Shown here in pieces: positions 19,429 through 27,774 of a DNA stretch of 64,000 nucleotides (within the stretch, counting starts at the first letter, position 1; each line of letters begins with the position of its first letter). Made by a program: the position numbers and the translations under genes. The notes under the pieces are model-generated. The model saw only the letters and a program-made list of their open reading frames with translations. It was not told where the DNA came from and searched no databases. Source of the DNA: Acidovorax sp. NB1 (GTDB lineage Bacteria; Pseudomonadota; Gammaproteobacteria; Burkholderiales; Burkholderiaceae_C); contig NZ_BJHU01000025.1 of assembly GCF_005405905.1 (NCBI RefSeq), forward strand, positions 310,001 through 374,000, given 5' to 3'.

Positions 19429-20493
19429 TCAAAACGGCGCTGCTTCCGGGTCCGTGTCCACCGGGGCCTCCGGGGGCCCGGTCACCACGCCACCTCCCGC
19501 TGATTTACGTGCAGGTGCCGTGGGCGCCGAAGCCCGTGGTGCAGCCGTGTTTGGAACAGCAGCAGTTGCAGTGGCTGCCACCGCATCGGCGGCACTGGCC
19601 ACACCACTCTCAGCCTCGCCCCCCAGCGCCTCGATAAGGTCGGGGATCAGCTTGACCAGCTCGCCCGTGGCAATCGCCACGTCGGTGTCAAAGCCGCCGT
19701 CGTCGGCCTTGGTGCCTTCAAACACGGTGTCGAGGAACGACACCTTCTTGATCTGCAGCCCCTCGGTGAGCATGAAGCTCACGCGGTCGTCCCAGGTGAG
19801 GGCGAGTTTGGTGGGCAGCTTGCCTGCGTCGATGTGGGCCTGCACCTCTTCGATGTCGAGCGGGTGGCGGGCGTAGCGCACCACGGCTTTTTCTTCGTTC
19901 GCGCTTTTGAGTTCACATTCACGGTCCACCGTGAAGCCCACGGGCGGCTCCTGCTCCTTGAGCCAGTGGGACATGGCGGCCTGGGGGCTGGTCTGGGTGT
20001 TGATGAGCGACACCGACAGGCCGGGCAGGGATTCGACCAGCAGCGTGACCACCTCGTCGGCCCGGCCCTGGCTGGACGTGTCCAGCACCAGGAGGCGTGA
20101 GGCGGTGTCGATCCACACCCACATCGAGCCCTGCTTGGTGAAGGCCATGGGCAGCAGGTCCAGCTTGGCCTCGTCTTTGAGCTCCTTGCTTTCCTTCTTG
20201 CCGGGCTTGCGGCCGGTTTCCTGCTCGATGCGTTCGGCCTTTTCCTTGACCTTGCGCGCCAGCACGCTGCCGGGCAGCACTTTGGATTCGACCATGAAGC
20301 GCAGGATCCACTGGCCCCCGACCGACTCGGCCAGCGGGCCGTGGGCATCGCCGCGCGGCGGCACCCAGCCCAGGGATTTTTCCTGCGTGGCGCCACATTC
20401 CATGAAGGGCGCCTTGGCCAGCGCCTCTTCGACCTGCGTCAATTCCACCTGCCATTGCGGTGCAATGCGGTACACGATCATGTTCTTGAACAC
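19429..20493 (-). CDS. rdgC: Recombination-associated protein RdgC
   Basis: A 354-residue RdgC, the ring-shaped dimer that binds DNA and restrains RecA activity. The N-terminus MFKNMIVYRIAPQW and segments such as LLPMAFTKQG, SHWLKEQEPP and LALTWDDRVSFMLTEGLQIKK are diagnostic. Compared with the ~300-residue E. coli protein it has an extra Ala/Pro/Thr-rich tail of about 50 residues. It is transcribed alone. A perfect 15-bp inverted repeat lies 75 bases upstream of its start. Confidence 0.93.
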   Translation of the reverse strand: MFKNMIVYRIAPQWQVELTQVEEALAKAPFMECGATQEKSLGWVPPRGDAHGPLAESVGGQWILRFMVESKVLPGSVLARKVKEKAERIEQETGRKPGKKESKELKDEAKLDLLPMAFTKQGSMWVWIDTASRLLVLDTSSQGRADEVVTLLVESLPGLSVSLINTQTSPQAAMSHWLKEQEPPVGFTVDRECELKSANEEKAVVRYARHPLDIEEVQAHIDAGKLPTKLALTWDDRVSFMLTEGLQIKKVSFLDTVFEGTKADDGGFDTDVAIATGELVKLIPDLIEALGGEAESGVASAADAVAATATAAVPNTAAPRASAPTAPARKSAGGGVVTGPPEAPVDTDPEAAPF

Positions 20494-20567
20494 GGAAAAC
20501 CTTTTGTTGGGTCGTTAGTGAATAAAAAGCAAGCCAACGGGCTCGGAACTCGCCATTGTCGGCGGTC

Positions 20568-20600
20568 GCCACCCCGGGCCTGATGCAGGCCCGGGGTGGC
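20568..20600. repeat. Perfect 15-bp hairpin upstream of rdgC
   Basis: Arms GCCACCCCGGGCCTG and CAGGCCCGGGGTGGC flank a 3-base loop. There is no T-run on either side, so it is not a standard terminator. It would lie in the 5' leader or promoter region of rdgC. Confidence 0.7.
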
Positions 20601-20845
20601 TGCGGCTTGACGCCTGTCAAAAGCTACAAATTTAATAGCTATAAAGACTTATCCATTGCGCGGAAAGCAGCATTTTGACCATGATGGACCATGGGAACAG
20701 GCCGCACCCCGATGGAGCTTCTTGGCACAACTTTACACAGCCTCATCCAACGCGCACGGCGGCGATACATGCGGGGCGGACACTGGCCCTCAATCGCTGA
20801 AACGGTCGTTGCAGCGAGCCAACCCCCGTGAAAGGACACCCTCCC
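20601..20845. other. Remainder of the rdgC to spy-like intergenic region
   Basis: The whole gap spans 20494-20845. It contains the 15-bp hairpin, a TATCAAAT-type repeat (20619-20678) and about 150 bp of unassigned sequence upstream of the Spy-like gene. No convincing promoter hexamers or small gene are visible. Confidence 0.5.
20619..20678 (+). repeat. TATCAAAT-type dispersed repeat, copy 3
   Basis: AAAGCTACAAATTTAATAGC, then TATAAAGACTTATCCATTGC, GCGGAAAGCAGCATTTTG. Same order of blocks as the other copies. Confidence 0.8.
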
Positions 20846-21403
20846 ATGGCATCCACCTTCCAACGCCGTTTTGCTGCCACCGCCCTGCTGGCAGCCATGG
20901 CCCTGCCCGTTCTGGCGCAACAGCCGCCTGCTGCGCCCCCTGCTGCTTCGGCCAAGGCCCCTGACGCCCGGCACGAGCGCCGCCACGGCGACCACGCCCA
21001 GCGCCATGCCAAGCACCTAGCCGAACTCAAGGCCCAGCTCAAGCTGACCGCCGCCCAGGAACCCGCCTGGACCAGCTTCACCACCGCCCTGCAGCCCGGC
21101 GAGCGCCCCGCCCGCCTGGACCGCCAGGACATGGACAAGCTCACCACCCCCGAGCGCATCGACCGCATGCGGGCCCTGCGCGCCCAGCATGCCGCCGAAG
21201 CCGACCGCCGGGGCGAGGCCACCAAGGCCTTTTATGCCGCACTGACGCCCGAGCAGCAAAAGACCTTTGATGCCCAGGCGCACCGTGGGCACCGCATGGG
21301 CGACATGAAGGGCGGCGAAGGCCGCCATGGGGGCCACGGTGGCCCGGGTGAACGCCACCACGGCGGCGCGGGCGGCAAACCCGGCCCGGCACCAGCGCAG
21401 TAA
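20846..21403 (+). CDS. Spy/CpxP-like periplasmic protein (LTxxQ motif)
   Basis: A 185-residue exported protein. The signal peptide (about 1-25, cleaved near VLAQQ) is followed by a His/Arg-rich helical domain with the LTxxQ signature twice: LKLTAAQEPAWTSF and ALTPEQQKTFD. Spy/CpxP proteins are periplasmic chaperones or metal-responsive sensors. The C-terminal ~40 residues are extremely Gly/His-rich (repeats such as GGHGG and RHHGG), suggesting metal binding. AAAGGAC eight bases upstream favours the ATG at 20846 over a GTG at 20828. A terminator follows at 21470. Confidence 0.82.
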   Translation: MASTFQRRFAATALLAAMALPVLAQQPPAAPPAASAKAPDARHERRHGDHAQRHAKHLAELKAQLKLTAAQEPAWTSFTTALQPGERPARLDRQDMDKLTTPERIDRMRALRAQHAAEADRRGEATKAFYAALTPEQQKTFDAQAHRGHRMGDMKGGEGRHGGHGGPGERHHGGAGGKPGPAPAQ

Positions 21404-21469
21404 GCCACGCAGGCACCAGCGGGCCAGCCTCCACGGCGCGGCTCCGCACATCACCCCATATCCCCGCCC

Positions 21470-21504
21470 ACCCGGCGCTCCTCCCCAGGACGCCGGGTTT
21501 TTTT
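21470..21504 (+). terminator. Intrinsic terminator of the spy-like gene
   Basis: Arms ACCCGGCG and CGCCGGGT close a hairpin followed directly by seven T residues. Confidence 0.85.
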
Positions 21505-21614
21505 GCGCTCTGCCCGGCTATGGGGCTATAGGGCTGTGGGGCTGGCGAGCCACCAGAGGACCCGCTGCAAACGCAGCACAAGGCCAAGGATGCCCATCCA
21601 CAGGCCCCCAAAAC

Positions 21615-21860
21615 CAGTGCCTGCGCCCGGATTGTGGATAAGTCTGGGAAGAGTTCTGGCACAACCGGGCGGTTATCCACACAAAAAGGCACCGCCGCAA
21701 AGTTGTTGTCTGTGGGCCCCGGGCTTTGTGCAGCCCGCCGCACAGACTTTGCGGCGACGCAAACCCGCGCCAGCATTCAGGAAAAAGGGTTTGTCCACAG
21801 AAACGGGGCTGCTCTATTACTACTGCTATTTATCTATAAAGCTATTAAAGAACAACCAGA
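21615..21860. other. Origin-like module A: DnaA boxes, GC spacer, triplet run, AT-rich tract
   Basis: Consensus DnaA boxes lie at 21633-21641 (TGTGGATAA, inverted TTATCCACA), 21673-21681 (TTATCCACA) and 21791-21799 (TTGTCCACA). The last is followed by a short GC-rich stretch, then TTACTACTGCTATTT (from 21817) and an AT-rich tract to about 21850. On the complementary strand the triplets read 3'-GAT, the DnaA-trio pattern. A hairpin with arms CCGCAAAGT/ACTTTGCGG (21695-21703, 21746-21754) lies between boxes two and three. No ORF here is credible. See module B for the duplicate. Confidence 0.65.
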
Positions 21861-22129
21861 ACTGCCATTTCGGGGCCCCATCCACCCTCTGTGAGACGCA
21901 GGAAGGTGGGGGTAGCGGCCCGATTCGGAGAACGGATCAAAAAACGGGAGGGATTCCATCCGGCGACGGGGCCCGGACGGCGCCAACACCTGCGTCTGGC
22001 CGGGACGGGTGCCGTGTGCGGGGACGATGGGTGCCCTGCATAGCACTCCGTTAGCTACACAATTGATAGCTAAAAAAGTTTACCCAATGAGCGCAGAGGC
22101 CCAATTTGAATCAAAAATTTCACGCCCTG
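21861..22129. other. Spacer between the two origin-like modules
   Basis: About 270 bp of mixed-composition sequence without a credible gene. A TATCAAAT-type repeat occupies 22051-22110. No DnaA box matching TTATNCACA is seen in this spacer. Confidence 0.55.
22051..22110 (+). repeat. TATCAAAT-type dispersed repeat, copy 4
   Basis: TTAGCTACACAATTGATAGC, AAAAAAGTTTACCCAATGAG, CGCAGAGGCCCAATTT. It lies between the two origin-like modules. Confidence 0.75.
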
Positions 22130-22365
22130 GCGCCCGGTGCGTAAAACTGGGGATAGTTTTGGCACAAGCCAGGGGTTATCCACAGAAAACGCCGCCTGCG
22201 GGCTTTTGTCCCCGTTGCCGGGACAGCGGCAGCAGGGGTTGGTGCACAGGGTTGGCGCGGTGCTAAGTGCCCGCCAGGGCAGCAGAAAACCCGGTTGTCC
22301 ACAGCGGGGGCCGCCCCTTACTACTACGACTATGTATTTATAAAAGATATAAGAAGAAAGACAGG
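22130..22365. other. Origin-like module B: DnaA boxes, GC spacer, DnaA-trio, AT-rich tract
   Basis: DnaA boxes TTATCCACA (22176-22184) and TTGTCCACA (22295-22303). The second is followed by a 14-bp GC block (GCGGGGGCCGCCCC), then TTACTACTACGACTATG (22318-22334) and the AT-rich TATTTATAAAAGATATAAG. Box, GC cluster, CTA-type triplets and AT-rich DNA in this order match the basal unwinding system described for bacterial oriC. The module parallels module A block by block, including TTTTGGCACAAGCC before the first box. It could instead be a DnaA-titration or regulatory locus. dnaA, dnaN, rpmH, gidA and parAB are not in the window. Confidence 0.68.
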
Positions 22366-22509
22366 GAACAACTTCTCCGGGGTCCGGAGCACCGCGGCAG
22401 GGGACCCCATGCGTGGCCGTCACCGCATGTCGGGGCCTCGGGGTGATGGCCAGCCGTCCCTGCACAGGTCAAACGGGACGAAAGGGGGGCGAGAAGGACA
22501 AAAAGGGCG

Positions 22510-22538
22510 AAAAAAAACCGCAGCCTTGGCTGCGGTTC
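22510..22538 (-). terminator. Intrinsic terminator of the GGDEF-EAL gene
   Basis: Minus-strand arms AACCGCAGCC and GGCTGCGGTT with a 2-base loop, followed by a run of seven or more T residues (the A-run at 22510-22517 on the plus strand). Confidence 0.85.
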
Positions 22539-22577
22539 GGTCCAGGTCTGCGGGAAAAGCAGAGAAAAGAAAGGGCC

Positions 22578-25500
22578 CTACGCCGCCGGTGTGCGCAGGA
22601 AGGCGTCCAGAAGGTCCACAGACAGGGGGCGGCTGAACAGGTAGCCCTGGTAGAGCTGGCAGCCTGCGCGGGCCAGCAGCTCGCGTTGCTCGGTGCTCTC
22701 TACGCCTTCGGCAATCACTTCCAGGCCCAGACTGCGCGACAGGCCGATGATGGTGTCCACAATCGCCGCGTCGTTCGGGTCGGTCAGCAGGTCGCGCACA
22801 AAGCTCTGGTCGATCTTGAGCTGGTCCAGCGGCATGCGCTTGAGGTAGCTCAGGCTGGAGTAGCCGGTGCCGAAGTCGTCCAGAGAAAAACCCACGCCAT
22901 AGCTGCGCAGCGCTTCCATGGTGGCGATGGTGGTTTCCATGTCCTCCACCAGCACACTTTCGGTCAGCTCCAGCTTGAGCTGGCCGGATGGGGCGCCCGT
23001 GATCGCCAGCACCCTGGCCACATCGTCCACAAAGCTGGCATGGCGGAACTGGCGCGAACTCACGTTCACGGCCATGGTCAGGTGGGCCAGGGCCGGGTCT
23101 TGCTGCCAACTGGCCAGCTGCTGGCAGGCGTTGTGCAGCACCCAGCGGCCCAGGGGCAGGATGAGCCCGGTCTCCTCGGCCAGCGGGATGAACTGCGCAG
23201 GCGAGACCATGCCCCGCTGTGGATGGGCCCAGCGCACCAGCGCTTCCACCCCCACACATTGGCCGGTGTGGCGCATCTGCGGCTGAAAGTGCAGCAAGAA
23301 TTCATCCTGCGCCAGGGCCGAGCGCAGGTCGGCCTCCAGCGCGGCGCGGGCCGTGACCACGGCCTGCATGTCGGGGTCAAAAAAGCGCAGTGTGTTGCGC
23401 CCCGCCGTCTTGGCCTGGTACATGGCCAGATCGGCCTGCTTGAGCAGTTCGCCCACGCTGGTCAGCTCGCCCGCAAAGGGCGCAATGCCGATGCTGGGCG
23501 TGCTGCGGTACTGGTAGCCCTCCAGCGCATAGGGCACGGCCAGCATGGTCAGTATCTTTTCGCCCACGCTGCGGGCGTGCAGCGCCAGCTCGTGCGGCTT
23601 GGGGCTGAGTTCTTCCAGCATGACCACAAACTCGTCGCCCCCCAGCCGTGCCACCGTGTCCACGCTGCGCACGCAGGTGTTCAGGCGCTGCGCCACCTGC
23701 TGCAGCAGCAGGTCGCCCTGGTCATGGCCCAGGGTGTCGTTCAAGGTCTTGAAGTTGTCCAGGTCGATGAACAGCAGCGCCCCGCCCTGCTGGCGCCGCT
23801 GCGCGGTGGCCAGGGCCTGGTGCATGCGGTCCATGAGCAGCATGCGGTTGGGCAGGCCGGTGAGTGCGTCGTAAAACGCCAGGCGCTGGATCTCGCGCTC
23901 ATTGGCCTTGCGTTGGCTGATGTCGGTGTTGATCGCCAGGATGGACTGCGGCTGCCCATCGTCGCCGCGCACCAGCGTCCAGCGGCCTTCGACCTCGATG
24001 GTGCTGCCGTTGCGGTGGCGTTGCACGATCTCGCCCGTCCACTCGCCCTGCTCCAGCACCGTCCGGGTGGCGTGGTGGAAATGGGTGGGGTCGTCGTAGA
24101 GCAGGGTATCGATGGACTGGCCCAGTGCCTGCAGCTGCGACCAGCCATACAGGCGCTCGGCGCTTTTGTTCCAGTAGATGGCGCGGTGCTCCAGGTCGCG
24201 CACCACGATGGCATCCTGTGCCTTGTCCAGCAGCGAGGCCTGGTGGCGGATGCGGGCATCGGCCAGCTGGCGTTCGATCTCGGCCGAGGCGCGCGAGGCA
24301 AAGATCTGCAGCGTGGAGGCGATGAAGTCGGTTTCGGCAATCGGCTGGCGGAACAGCACGAACACGATACCCACCACCTCACCGTCGGCATTGCACAGCT
24401 GCTGGCCTGCATAGGCCTGGGCGCCTACCTTGGCGAGGATGGGTGCCTCGGGGTAGAGCTGCTGCACCTTGTCGGCCACCACATGGGTGCGCTGCGCCAT
24501 CAGCAGCAGGCTGGGGGTGCCCGCCAGGGAGTATTCGTCGTTGGGCAGCATCTGGCCGTCGAGCACGGCAGCCAGCGTCGCCACCCGGGGCGGCTGGTCC
24601 TTGGCGGTGGCTGGCAGCAACCGCACCACGCAGCCGCCTTGCGCATCCAGCGCGTCGGCCATGTTGCGCACCAGCTGCACAAAAAACTCGGTGCCTGTGC
24701 TGGCCGACACGGCCGCCGCCACCTTGAGCACCGAGGCCTGCAGCCGCTGCTGCGCCTTGTGCGCGCGCAGGCTGGTAATGCCAAAGGCCAGGTCGCTGGC
24801 CAGCTCCTGCAGCAGCGCGGCCTCCTCGGGGCTGATCTGCAGGATGTCGGGGGCGTACAGGTAGAGCAGGCCAAAGGCACGGTCCTGGTCACGGTGCCGC
24901 AGGGGCAGGCAGATCACGCCGTGGAAACCGTTGTCCAGCATGCGCTCGGTCCAGTCGGCAAAGTCGCCTTCGGTGCGGATGTCTTGCACGATCACGGGCT
25001 GGCCCGAGCGGATGGCCATGCCTGCCGGGCCGCGCCCATAGCGGTCGTCGGCCGACCAGGACAGGTGCAGGTTCTCCAGGTAGTGTTCGTTGTAGCCCGC
25101 GTGGGCCACGGGCTGGATGGACTTGCGTTCATCGTCCAGCGCCAACCCCACCCAGCCCATGCGGTAGCCGCCGATGTCCACCGCAATCTGGCAGATGGCC
25201 TGCAGCAAGGCTGTTTCGGAGGTGGCGCGCACCAGCGTTTCGTTGCAGGCGCTCAAGAGGCGCTGCGCGCGGCCCATGCGCGCCAGTTCGCGCTCGGTGC
25301 GCAGGCGCTCGGTCACATCGGTGGCCAGCACCTGCCGGGCCGGGCGGCCATTGAAGCTGATGCTGCCCGCCGTGATCTCCACATCCATGAACGAGCCGTC
25401 TTTTTTGACATGGCGGCTGATGACCGGCTTGTTGCGCTGGTCCATGGGGATGGCGTCGATGGACGCGCGGATGGCATCGCGCCGTTCAGCAGGCCACAGG

Positions 25501-27464
25501 TCGGTCATCTGCATGGTCAGCAGCTCGGCCTCGGTGTAGCCGTAGTGGGTTTCCATCGACCGGTTTACTGCCTGCAGCCGCTGCGTCTCTTTGTCGTACA
25601 CCCACATCGGGTGCGGGTGCTCGTCAAACAGCATGCGGTACTGCAACTCGGACGCGTGCAACTGCCCGGCCACATGGCGCAGCTGCACCATGGCGCCCAG
25701 GGATTCGGTGAGGATCTCCAGGTGGGCCACATCGCGGCGCGAGAACGCGTTGGTCTTGTCCGAGGTGACCTTGAGCGAGCCCACGATGGCATCGCCGCTG
25801 CGCAGCGGCACGGCCATCACCGACAGGACGCCGTGGCGGTGGGGCATCGAGGCCATGTCCCAGCCCTCGGCCTCGGTGTCGTTGCACACCACGGTCTGGC
25901 CCTGGCTGAGCGCGGGCCACAGCAGGCTCTGGTCTACGGGCAGCAGGTTGCCCACCGGCCGCACATGGTCGCCCGCCGAGGCCTGTGCCACCAGCTGGCG
26001 GCCTCCCTGCAGCAGCTCCACCATCGCGCCGCGCGCATGGGTCTGACGCAGCACGGTGCTGGCAACCAGCTGCAGCACCTCGGGCAAGGGCATGTCCAGC
26101 GACGAGATGCGCTGCTGCACCTGCAGCAGCTCGGCATGGTTTTGCGCATCGCGCTGGGCGTCCAGGTCGGCCAGCTTCTGGGCGCTGATGTCGGTCATGC
26201 CGCCCACCATGCGCACAGCCTTGCCCTGCAGGTCGCGGATCAGGAAGCCCCGGTCCAGCACCCAGGCGTAGCTGCCATCCTGGCGGCGAAAACGGTATTC
26301 GTCCGACCAGTGGTTGGCCGTGCCGTCGATGGCAGCCTGGATGCCGTCGAGCACCGCCGCGCTGTCGTCGGGGTGCAGGCGCAAGGTCCACGAGGTGCTG
26401 TCGGGCGGCAGCTGGTCCAGTGGCACGCCAAACAGGTTCTGCATACCTTCGTTCCACCACATCGTGTCGCTATGCAGGTTCCAGTCCCATACGGCATCGG
26501 CCGTGGCGCGCGCTACGAGGTGAAAACGCTCTTCACTCAACTGCCGCGCTTGGTAGGCCTGGTGCTGCGCTGATATGTCCTGGAAAGCGCCCTGCACACG
26601 GACGAGGCGGCCGTTCGCATCACACACGGCCTGGCCCGCCGTGCGCACCCAGAAATGCCGGTCGCCGGGCATTACCACCTCGGCCTCAATGTCAAAAGGG
26701 CGGCCCCTGAGCATGCAATCGTCGAATGCCCTTTGCATTGCCGCCCTGTGGGCCGGGGTGTAGAGCTGCAGCAGCTGGGCTGCCGTTCCCGTGCGCTGGG
26801 CAATGCCATAGGCGACAGCAACTTCCTCTGACCAGCTTAGCTGCATGCCGGGCAGCTCGATGCTCCAGCCGCCGACCCGTGCAATCTGCCCTGTCACACG
26901 CAGTGCCTCACCCTGCGCGGCCAGCTCGGCGTGCATTCGGTCGCGCTGCTGGACGAGTTCCCCCAGCAGCTGCTTCTGGCGGCGCAGCTCCAGCTGCATC
27001 ATGGTCTGCTCAGCCAGGATGCGCAGGCCTTCCAGCTGTTCGGGCGAGAGGCTGCGCGGCACACCATCCAGCACCGCCAGGGTGCCCAGCGCAAACCCCT
27101 CGTTCGTGACCAGGGGCACGCAGGCATAAAAGCGGATGTGGGGTTCTTCCAGCACCAGCGGGTTGCTGGCAAAGCTGGGGTCCAGGGTGGTGTCGGGCAC
27201 CACCCGGGGCTCGCGGCTGCCGCTCAGGGCGTGGGCGCAGAACGCAATCGCACGGTCGGTTTCGCGGAAGGGAACGCCCACCGTGGCCTTGAACCACTGG
27301 CGTTCATGGTCCACAAAGTTGACCACCGCCATCGGGCAGTGGCATACCTGCGCGGCCAGCTTGGCCAGCTGGTCAAAACTTTCTTCGGCCGGGGTGTCGA
27401 GGATCGCGTAAGACTGCAGTGCCTGGAGCCTTGCGGCTTCTGCGGTGGCTTGCGCTGGTGGCAT
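22578..27464 (-). CDS. Multi-sensor GGDEF-EAL protein (cyclic-di-GMP turnover)
   Basis: A ~1628-residue cytoplasmic protein with no membrane helices. The order is an N-terminal GAF (about 1-165), two PAS domains, GAF, PAS, two further GAF-like domains, PAS, then GGDEF and EAL. GGDEF is intact at 1275-1279 and preceded five residues earlier by RSVD, an RxxD product-inhibition site. EAL (1407-1409) is intact, with VNVSSRQF, ELTESVL, DDFGTGYSSL, LKIDQSF and YQGYLFSRP present, so both synthesis and hydrolysis of c-di-GMP are possible. The start is uncertain: an ATG at 27500 and a GTG at 27506 are in frame, and none has a clear ribosome site; 27464 fits the usual GAF start best. Confidence 0.88.
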   Translation of the reverse strand: MPPAQATAEAARLQALQSYAILDTPAEESFDQLAKLAAQVCHCPMAVVNFVDHERQWFKATVGVPFRETDRAIAFCAHALSGSREPRVVPDTTLDPSFASNPLVLEEPHIRFYACVPLVTNEGFALGTLAVLDGVPRSLSPEQLEGLRILAEQTMMQLELRRQKQLLGELVQQRDRMHAELAAQGEALRVTGQIARVGGWSIELPGMQLSWSEEVAVAYGIAQRTGTAAQLLQLYTPAHRAAMQRAFDDCMLRGRPFDIEAEVVMPGDRHFWVRTAGQAVCDANGRLVRVQGAFQDISAQHQAYQARQLSEERFHLVARATADAVWDWNLHSDTMWWNEGMQNLFGVPLDQLPPDSTSWTLRLHPDDSAAVLDGIQAAIDGTANHWSDEYRFRRQDGSYAWVLDRGFLIRDLQGKAVRMVGGMTDISAQKLADLDAQRDAQNHAELLQVQQRISSLDMPLPEVLQLVASTVLRQTHARGAMVELLQGGRQLVAQASAGDHVRPVGNLLPVDQSLLWPALSQGQTVVCNDTEAEGWDMASMPHRHGVLSVMAVPLRSGDAIVGSLKVTSDKTNAFSRRDVAHLEILTESLGAMVQLRHVAGQLHASELQYRMLFDEHPHPMWVYDKETQRLQAVNRSMETHYGYTEAELLTMQMTDLWPAERRDAIRASIDAIPMDQRNKPVISRHVKKDGSFMDVEITAGSISFNGRPARQVLATDVTERLRTERELARMGRAQRLLSACNETLVRATSETALLQAICQIAVDIGGYRMGWVGLALDDERKSIQPVAHAGYNEHYLENLHLSWSADDRYGRGPAGMAIRSGQPVIVQDIRTEGDFADWTERMLDNGFHGVICLPLRHRDQDRAFGLLYLYAPDILQISPEEAALLQELASDLAFGITSLRAHKAQQRLQASVLKVAAAVSASTGTEFFVQLVRNMADALDAQGGCVVRLLPATAKDQPPRVATLAAVLDGQMLPNDEYSLAGTPSLLLMAQRTHVVADKVQQLYPEAPILAKVGAQAYAGQQLCNADGEVVGIVFVLFRQPIAETDFIASTLQIFASRASAEIERQLADARIRHQASLLDKAQDAIVVRDLEHRAIYWNKSAERLYGWSQLQALGQSIDTLLYDDPTHFHHATRTVLEQGEWTGEIVQRHRNGSTIEVEGRWTLVRGDDGQPQSILAINTDISQRKANEREIQRLAFYDALTGLPNRMLLMDRMHQALATAQRRQQGGALLFIDLDNFKTLNDTLGHDQGDLLLQQVAQRLNTCVRSVDTVARLGGDEFVVMLEELSPKPHELALHARSVGEKILTMLAVPYALEGYQYRSTPSIGIAPFAGELTSVGELLKQADLAMYQAKTAGRNTLRFFDPDMQAVVTARAALEADLRSALAQDEFLLHFQPQMRHTGQCVGVEALVRWAHPQRGMVSPAQFIPLAEETGLILPLGRWVLHNACQQLASWQQDPALAHLTMAVNVSSRQFRHASFVDDVARVLAITGAPSGQLKLELTESVLVEDMETTIATMEALRSYGVGFSLDDFGTGYSSLSYLKRMPLDQLKIDQSFVRDLLTDPNDAAIVDTIIGLSRSLGLEVIAEGVESTEQRELLARAGCQLYQGYLFSRPLSVDLLDAFLRTPAA

Positions 27465-27774
27465 GGTCGTCAGGCAAGCACGGAGCCCAGGCGCGCGCAT
27501 CGGCACAGCCGGATCAGGGCGACCGGGGTGGCTGGGCAGGCGCAGGGCAGCGGGATCAACAAGGCAGTCGGACAGCAGGCGGGCACACGCTGAACGCTTG
27601 CACCACGGGTAAAAATCCAGGGGGCGGCAGCCCCAAGGTTCAAAGGGGCAATGCTACACCGCACAGACACCCCCTGCGGGGGCGCTGAATGGGGGTTTGC
27701 CCCAGATGAACCGGGGGCCACACGCCCGGTGGCGTGCCTGCCGCCACTGGTGGCGGATTGTTACTGGATTGCTG
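27465..27774. other. Intergenic region between aroG and the GGDEF-EAL gene
   Basis: A 310-bp stretch with short GC-rich palindromes, e.g. CCGCCAC-TG-GTGGCGG (27741-27756), which could stop the aroG transcript although no T-run follows. The promoter of the large GGDEF-EAL gene should lie in the right part reading leftwards. No gene is visible. Confidence 0.5.

Follow-up and report, generated by a model that had tools for sequence, protein, structure and literature searches.

Genome numbering and origin prediction often equate dnaA with the origin of replication. A locus of Acidovorax sp. NB1, a genus assigned to Comamonadaceae by NCBI taxonomy, carries an origin-type unwinding element outside the dnaA locus, which raises the question of whether replication in this bacterium and its relatives begins at a site apart from dnaA. 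An initial annotation of the element left three readings, i.e., the chromosomal origin in an unexpected place, a second origin, or a DnaA-binding control site. The window analysed here is a stretch of 64,000 bases (C25:310001-374000) within the 381,259-base contig C25 of a 5.49-Mb genome in 60 contigs. The locus is very probably the chromosomal DnaA-dependent oriC of this Acidovorax-group bacterium, situated apart from dnaA and built from two tandem modules in the same orientation. This reading is supported by the anatomy of the locus, the conservation of both modules, the place of the skew minimum in relatives from other genera, and the linkage to parS, parAB and gidA.

Anatomy of the locus

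Two paralogous modules of about 225 bp lie in tandem on the same strand, and both follow the same order: DnaA boxes, a last TTGTCCACA box, a 14-bp spacer, CTA-type DnaA-trios, and AT-rich DNA. The initial annotation covered only module 2, in which its box, 14-bp GC-only block, trios, and AT-rich DNA are all found, as is the perfect TTATCCACA box 110 bp upstream; the duplication was absent from it, and module 1 is a second complete copy located 503 bp upstream of module 2. The features of the locus are as follows, in window coordinates.

19429-20493, minus strand: rdgC, recombination-associated protein (library scan)
20828-21403, plus strand: LTXXQ-motif protein gene, left of the putative origin
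21633-21641, minus strand: DnaA box TTATCCACA, left edge of module 1 (sequence match)
21636-21857, plus strand: putative origin module 1 (profile positions 2-224; nhmmer E 1.3e-45)
21673-21681, plus strand: DnaA box TTATCCACA, module 1 (sequence match)
21791-21799, plus strand: DnaA box TTGTCCACA, module 1; proposed start of DnaA spread onto the trios
21800-21813, plus strand: 14-bp spacer, module 1
21814-21828, plus strand: DnaA-trios CTATTACTACTGCTA, module 1
21829-21850, plus strand: predicted AT-rich unwinding stretch, module 1
21858-22138, no strand: inter-module spacer, poorly conserved (0.37)
22139-22362, plus strand: putative origin module 2, which holds the element of the initial annotation (profile positions 2-225; nhmmer E 4.4e-50)
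22176-22184, plus strand: DnaA box TTATCCACA, module 2 (sequence match)
22295-22303, plus strand: DnaA box TTGTCCACA, module 2, 110 bp after the TTATCCACA box
22304-22317, plus strand: 14-bp GC-only spacer, module 2
22318-22332, plus strand: DnaA-trios TTACTACTACGACTA, module 2, within TTACTACTACGACTATG (22318-22334)
22333-22356, plus strand: predicted AT-rich unwinding stretch, module 2
22578-27506, minus strand: PAS/GAF/GGDEF/EAL protein gene, right of the putative origin and convergent with it

The nhmmer E-values of the two modules are not independent, since the search profile includes both of them. The GC content falls to 30% and 22.5% (40-bp steps) directly after the respective trio sets. 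The five TTRTCCACA boxes between 21633 and 22303 form an intergenic cluster between convergent genes; as annotated initially, the flanking genes face the region, with the LTXXQ gene on the plus strand and the PAS/GAF/GGDEF/EAL gene on the minus strand. The gene rdgC adjoins the modules, and relatives of it, identified by blastp rather than by library scan, lie no more than 10.1 kb from a module in G016, G079, and G132.

A chance origin of the pattern is rejected by shuffles and by a backward-pattern control, for which the search patterns were devised after sight of the site. Two instances of a box followed after 8-26 nt by trios are present in the window, compared with none in 200 dinucleotide-preserving shuffles, and neither five nor three TTRTCCACA boxes within 700 bp, where the locus holds five, were reached in any shuffle of two sets of 200. 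A similar box-trio pattern has matches in 12 of 150 family genomes, while the same pattern read backwards has none. No known RNA element was matched by Rfam in window 20000-24000.

The order of DnaA box, spacer, and DnaA-trios is that of the basal unwinding system (BUS) of bacterial oriC, and both modules contain a box, a spacer near 13 bp, and at least three trios. The part of a published BUS scan cited here gives 13 bp as the commonest spacer (PMC8287927), compared with 14 bp in the modules. The locus differs from the BUS in that two complete copies are present, about 0.5 kb apart and in the same orientation, at tens of kb from dnaA.

Conservation of both modules within the genus

A DNA query spanning window 21560-22580 matches all 47 genus genomes, NB1 included, at E <= 0.001. 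Two modules are present in 29 of the 30 genus loci examined, at 464-800 bp from start to start; the exception, L183, has one module and lies close to a contig end. Furthermore, the 140 kb read in G157 around its module contain no second one. The exact core pattern of module 2 occurs in 38 named stretches, which belong to Acidovorax and Paracidovorax, to one Diaphorobacter, and to a few metagenome bins with less specific names. Two modules are found in 33 of these, and four of the other five hits start at most 51 bases from the end of the stretch; the Diaphorobacter stretch apparently has a truly single module.

Over the 29 two-module loci, the mean pairwise identity is 0.77 for module 1 and 0.75 for module 2, compared with 0.22, 0.37, and 0.27 for the intergenic DNA before, between, and after the modules and with 0.67 and 0.65 for the ends of the flanking genes. 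In both modules, the trios and the AT-rich DNA rank with the most conserved segments (0.92 and 0.98, in steps of 20 bp). The two modules are also distinct from each other: the signature ACTACTGCTAT is found in 26 of 29 first modules and in no second module, and TACGACTAT in 27 of 29 second modules and in no first module. A FastTree phylogeny built on 73 modules separates two clades, one for the first modules (31 tips, support 0.95) and one for the second (30 tips, support 0.93), and a copy from G079, a member of another genus, is placed in each. The duplication thus predates the common ancestor that G079 shares with the genus genomes sampled; the origin of the two-module state elsewhere outside the genus is not resolved by this 73-module tree.

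Position relative to dnaA and the parS/gidA cluster

In NB1, dnaA lies on contig C10, which follows the right end of C25 according to synteny with G177. The dnaA locus has no such module; it contains three TTATCCACA-type boxes, and the short ribosomal-protein-like gene beside dnaA is presumably rpmH. Module and dnaA share a contig in 20 of the 22 genus genomes searched, and the distance between them is 22.7-86.4 kb in 19 of these. The remaining genome, G157, has its single module (on C2) 1,134 kb from dnaA, the sole such gap among the 20. For four relatives from other genera, the module found first lies at 139 (G072), 111 (G132), 132 (G016), and 186 kb (G020) from dnaA.

Neither the module nor the BUS pattern is present at 34 of 35 dnaA loci, some of which are cut by contig ends; in the one exception, G057, the module directly follows dnaA, between it and the next gene. 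The dnaA-rpmH region is therefore rejected as the usual place of the module, and a pure DnaA-titration site, one of the initial readings, becomes less likely because dnaA stands without a module at these 34 loci. The classical bipartite oriC, with sub-regions on either side of dnaA, is not the arrangement found here.

The initial annotation argued against a main origin from the absence of gidA and parAB. This absence holds inside the window; however, it is an effect of the window edge, since mnmG(gidA)-rsmG-parA-parB is located on the same contig just beyond it, 31-37 kb left of the modules. The products of parB, rsmG, and mnmG match NCBIfam TIGR00180, TIGR00138, and TIGR00136, respectively, above cut-off, and parA matches ParA-type models below their cut-offs. 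The parS sequence TGTTNCACGTGNAACA occurs in NB1 only at C25:298134 and 299287, at this cluster. It is found in 16 of 18 genomes searched, with none in G185 and G157, and lies 11-41 kb from the nearest module in the 16 genomes; in the 15 of these with dnaA on the same contig, its distance from dnaA is 49-175 kb, and the module is nearer than dnaA in all 15. The linkage to parS/parAB expected of an oriC is thus found, for parS in these 16 genomes and for parAB-gidA in NB1.

No second origin with this module was found elsewhere in the genome. Two other sites of NB1 carry DnaA boxes. At C59:1759-2187 (L009), a 122-nt repeat is present in three tandem copies, which are 64-100% identical to the reference; the site has four TTRTCCACA boxes within 325 bp and no CTA trios by eye, and is possibly a DnaA-binding control site. 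At about 162700-163300 of C26 (L010:7700-8270), two TTATCCACA boxes lie in near-identical 39-nt repeats, together with two TTTTTGTGCATAAG-type repeats; we take the neighbourhood to be that of hemE, at which a second origin is predicted in Ralstonia pickettii (PMC4403523).

Strand composition outside the genus

GC skew, suggested initially as a check, was followed in tiles of 140-400 kb, which are parts of chromosomes and measure about 400 kb in the four relatives outside the genus. The cumulative minimum lies 1.0 (G072), 0.8 (G132), 2.7 (G016), and 2.3 kb (G020) from the nearest module, compared with 141, 99, 118, and 191 kb, respectively, from dnaA. The best change-point value is reached by 0, 0, 0, and 1 of 500 shuffles in the same order. 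The raw skew switch expected of an oriC is thus located at the site in all four relatives tiled.

After correction for gene strand, the switch in G132 falls at 4,515,746, i.e., 36 bp from module 2 at 4,515,710, and in G016 and G020 it is 4.3 and 2.6 kb, respectively, from the second module. In G072, the corrected switch is 47 kb from the module, and the few copies of AGGGCAGGGC to its left already lie on the plus strand; AGGGCAGGGC is too rare to locate the switch. The skew is also nearly flat on the dnaA side of G132 (4.56-4.70 Mb).

Proposed mechanism and the number of working modules

By analogy with the basal unwinding system, as described in the cited part of its source (PMC8287927), DnaA would bind the TTATCCACA and TTGTCCACA boxes in each module; assembly starting at the last box would proceed over the 14-bp spacer to the DnaA-trios and bring about the opening of the AT-rich DNA behind them. 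We infer that DnaA binding, strand opening, and helicase loading may take place here with the participation of both modules. With two modules of the same direction, the DNA could open at two places, one module could back up the other, or one could fire while the other regulates.

The alternative that only one module is the origin, the other being a spare or regulatory DnaA site, is a serious one, to which we assign somewhat less than an even chance. It draws on the distribution of the module in the family, in which the profile R1, built from the modules of 12 genomes among the 200 family genomes, matches 194 of these 200 and 125 of 126 genera at E <= 1e-5. One match is present in 130 of the 200 genomes, and two or three in 64. 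The single module of G157 within its 140-kb tile points in the same direction, as does the skew minimum, which is nearer the second module in the two-module genomes G132, G016, and G020. On the other hand, both modules of the genus contain all the elements, are conserved almost equally, and bear separate signatures in separate clades, which argues against a single working module.

The spacing of the modules varies considerably in the family. Among the matches listed, pairs lie 0.3-0.7 kb apart (e.g., G010, G014, G216, and G219), 1.6-5 kb apart (e.g., G234 and G065), or 9-46 kb apart (G008, G004, G132, G118, and G147), and the modules of G039, G118, and G147 are on opposite strands. The distance is about 11 kb in G132 and G016, where the NB1 modules are syntenic with module 2, and 46 kb, on opposite strands, in G147. 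At least two multi-match genomes have their matches on different contigs. It is conceivable, though rather unlikely, that the family origin is a modular multi-copy system in which one to three paralogous modules, some of them inverted, are spaced about 0.3 to about 46 kb apart and can each initiate replication; more than one working origin would then occur naturally on chromosomes like those of G132, G016, and G147.

At the level of the order, 34 of 150 genomes match R1, mostly weakly outside the family. A genome from another family of the order has three profile matches within 1.6 kb (G297:C1:1853645-1855248). In L066 (G135:C21), a long run of CTA triplets follows the module from about position 450 and constitutes an expanded DnaA-trio tract.

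Strand composition within the genus and the remaining alternatives

Within the genus, the composition switch appears to be shifted to the dnaA side of the modules, as far as dnaA or past it; the skew check, which places the minimum at the module in relatives of other genera, gives no clear switch at the modules here. In G177, the raw skew minimum (3,150,875) is 103 kb from the modules, and the gene-corrected switch (3,136,768) is 117 kb off. On contig C25 of NB1, no significant skew change is found at the site; the best position, 332,001, has a t of 1.46, a value as high being reached in 350 of 500 shuffles. The minimum in G157 lies 47 kb from its single module and is likewise not significant (81 of 500 shuffles). 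To the right of the NB1 site, GGGNAGGG occurs twice on the plus strand and nine times on the minus strand, where a fork from the site predicts plus; to the left of the site in G177, it occurs 21 times on the plus and 7 times on the minus strand. A 7-mer score learned on the four relatives forms a plateau of about 80 kb in G177 that spans dnaA and the modules, with no sharp switch in G177 or in the NB1 contigs. GGGCAGGG occurs in at least 100 places in NB1. A simple inversion fails to explain the displaced switch, because the region is collinear with G132 and G016.

It may be asked, then, whether the working origin of the genus is located in the dnaA-rpmH region, with the modules as an ancestral origin that now serves DnaA titration or timing in the manner of datA/DARS. 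The displaced switch, which in G177 fits dnaA (F 8.8) better than the site (F 3.9), and the TTATCCACA-type boxes beside dnaA, three of them in the NB1 locus, are in its favour. The datA/DARS sites are DnaA boxes that modulate DnaA and lack origin function, and a BUS is not expected there; titration could dispense with the trios and the AT-rich DNA, whose conservation is nevertheless among the highest in both modules. The module and the BUS pattern are moreover missing from nearly all dnaA loci, parS is nearer the modules than dnaA wherever both distances are measurable, and the skew minimum is at the module in the four relatives. We consider a dnaA-region origin improbable. An integrated plasmid or another mobile element could have supplied an origin outside the dnaA locus, a reading of negligible probability given the presence of the element in every genus genome and in 194 of 200 family genomes, the synteny of the locus with relatives, and the lack of any match to window 21600-22400 in 72,556 plasmid records (blastn). 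The BUS reading and the initial option of a chromosomal origin in an unexpected place are well supported by conservation, by the GC skew of four relatives, and by parS/gidA linkage.

Relation to known origins and significance

In the bipartite origins of Bacillus subtilis and Helicobacter pylori, the two parts flank dnaA and a single unwinding element is present. These origins resemble the Acidovorax locus in their two sub-regions with DnaA boxes (PMC4403523); in the Acidovorax locus, however, dnaA is remote, and a separate box-spacer-trio unit is present in each part. The origin parts of Acidaminococcus also flank dnaA (PMC4403523).

Putative double origins are recorded in DoriC, e.g., for chromosome 1 of R. 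pickettii 12D, at dnaA and hemE, 291 kb apart, and their function was left open (Gao 2015, PMC4403523). As in the present family, more than one candidate origin per chromosome is thereby proposed in Burkholderiales; however, the DoriC cases are single-genome predictions with one copy beside dnaA, whereas the paralogous modules described here recur throughout the genus and the family. In chromosome 1 of Cupriavidus metallidurans CH34, according to the part of the source cited, a GC-skew transition lies about 90 kb from dnaA and adjoins a 213-nt region with three perfect DnaA boxes (PMC2864759). Compared by description only, this is similar to the present case in having a skew transition away from dnaA beside DnaA boxes, and different in that the same part of the account describes no duplicated module. 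An origin remote from dnaA is therefore not new in the order, since R. pickettii (PMC4403523) and, on the cited part of its description, C. metallidurans (PMC2864759) are precedents. Additionally, the portion of Ori-Finder 2022 drawn on here (PMC10225481) cites a strain of Vibrio cholerae in which one chromosome carries two functional oriCs.

In the literature searched by title and abstract, no description was found of an Acidovorax or Comamonadaceae oriC, although DoriC may already list these sites, or of a conserved tandem of two complete origin modules. The tandem of two complete unwinding modules is apparently a new form of origin architecture.

Taking dnaA as the origin would usually be wrong by tens to hundreds of kb in the family of Acidovorax. 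G157, with its module 1,134 kb from dnaA, provides a natural test case for whether the module or dnaA marks the origin. The use of two origins on one bacterial chromosome is a debated question (PMC4403523), for which a genus with modules half a kilobase apart, together with relatives in which they are 3-46 kb apart, constitutes a natural series.
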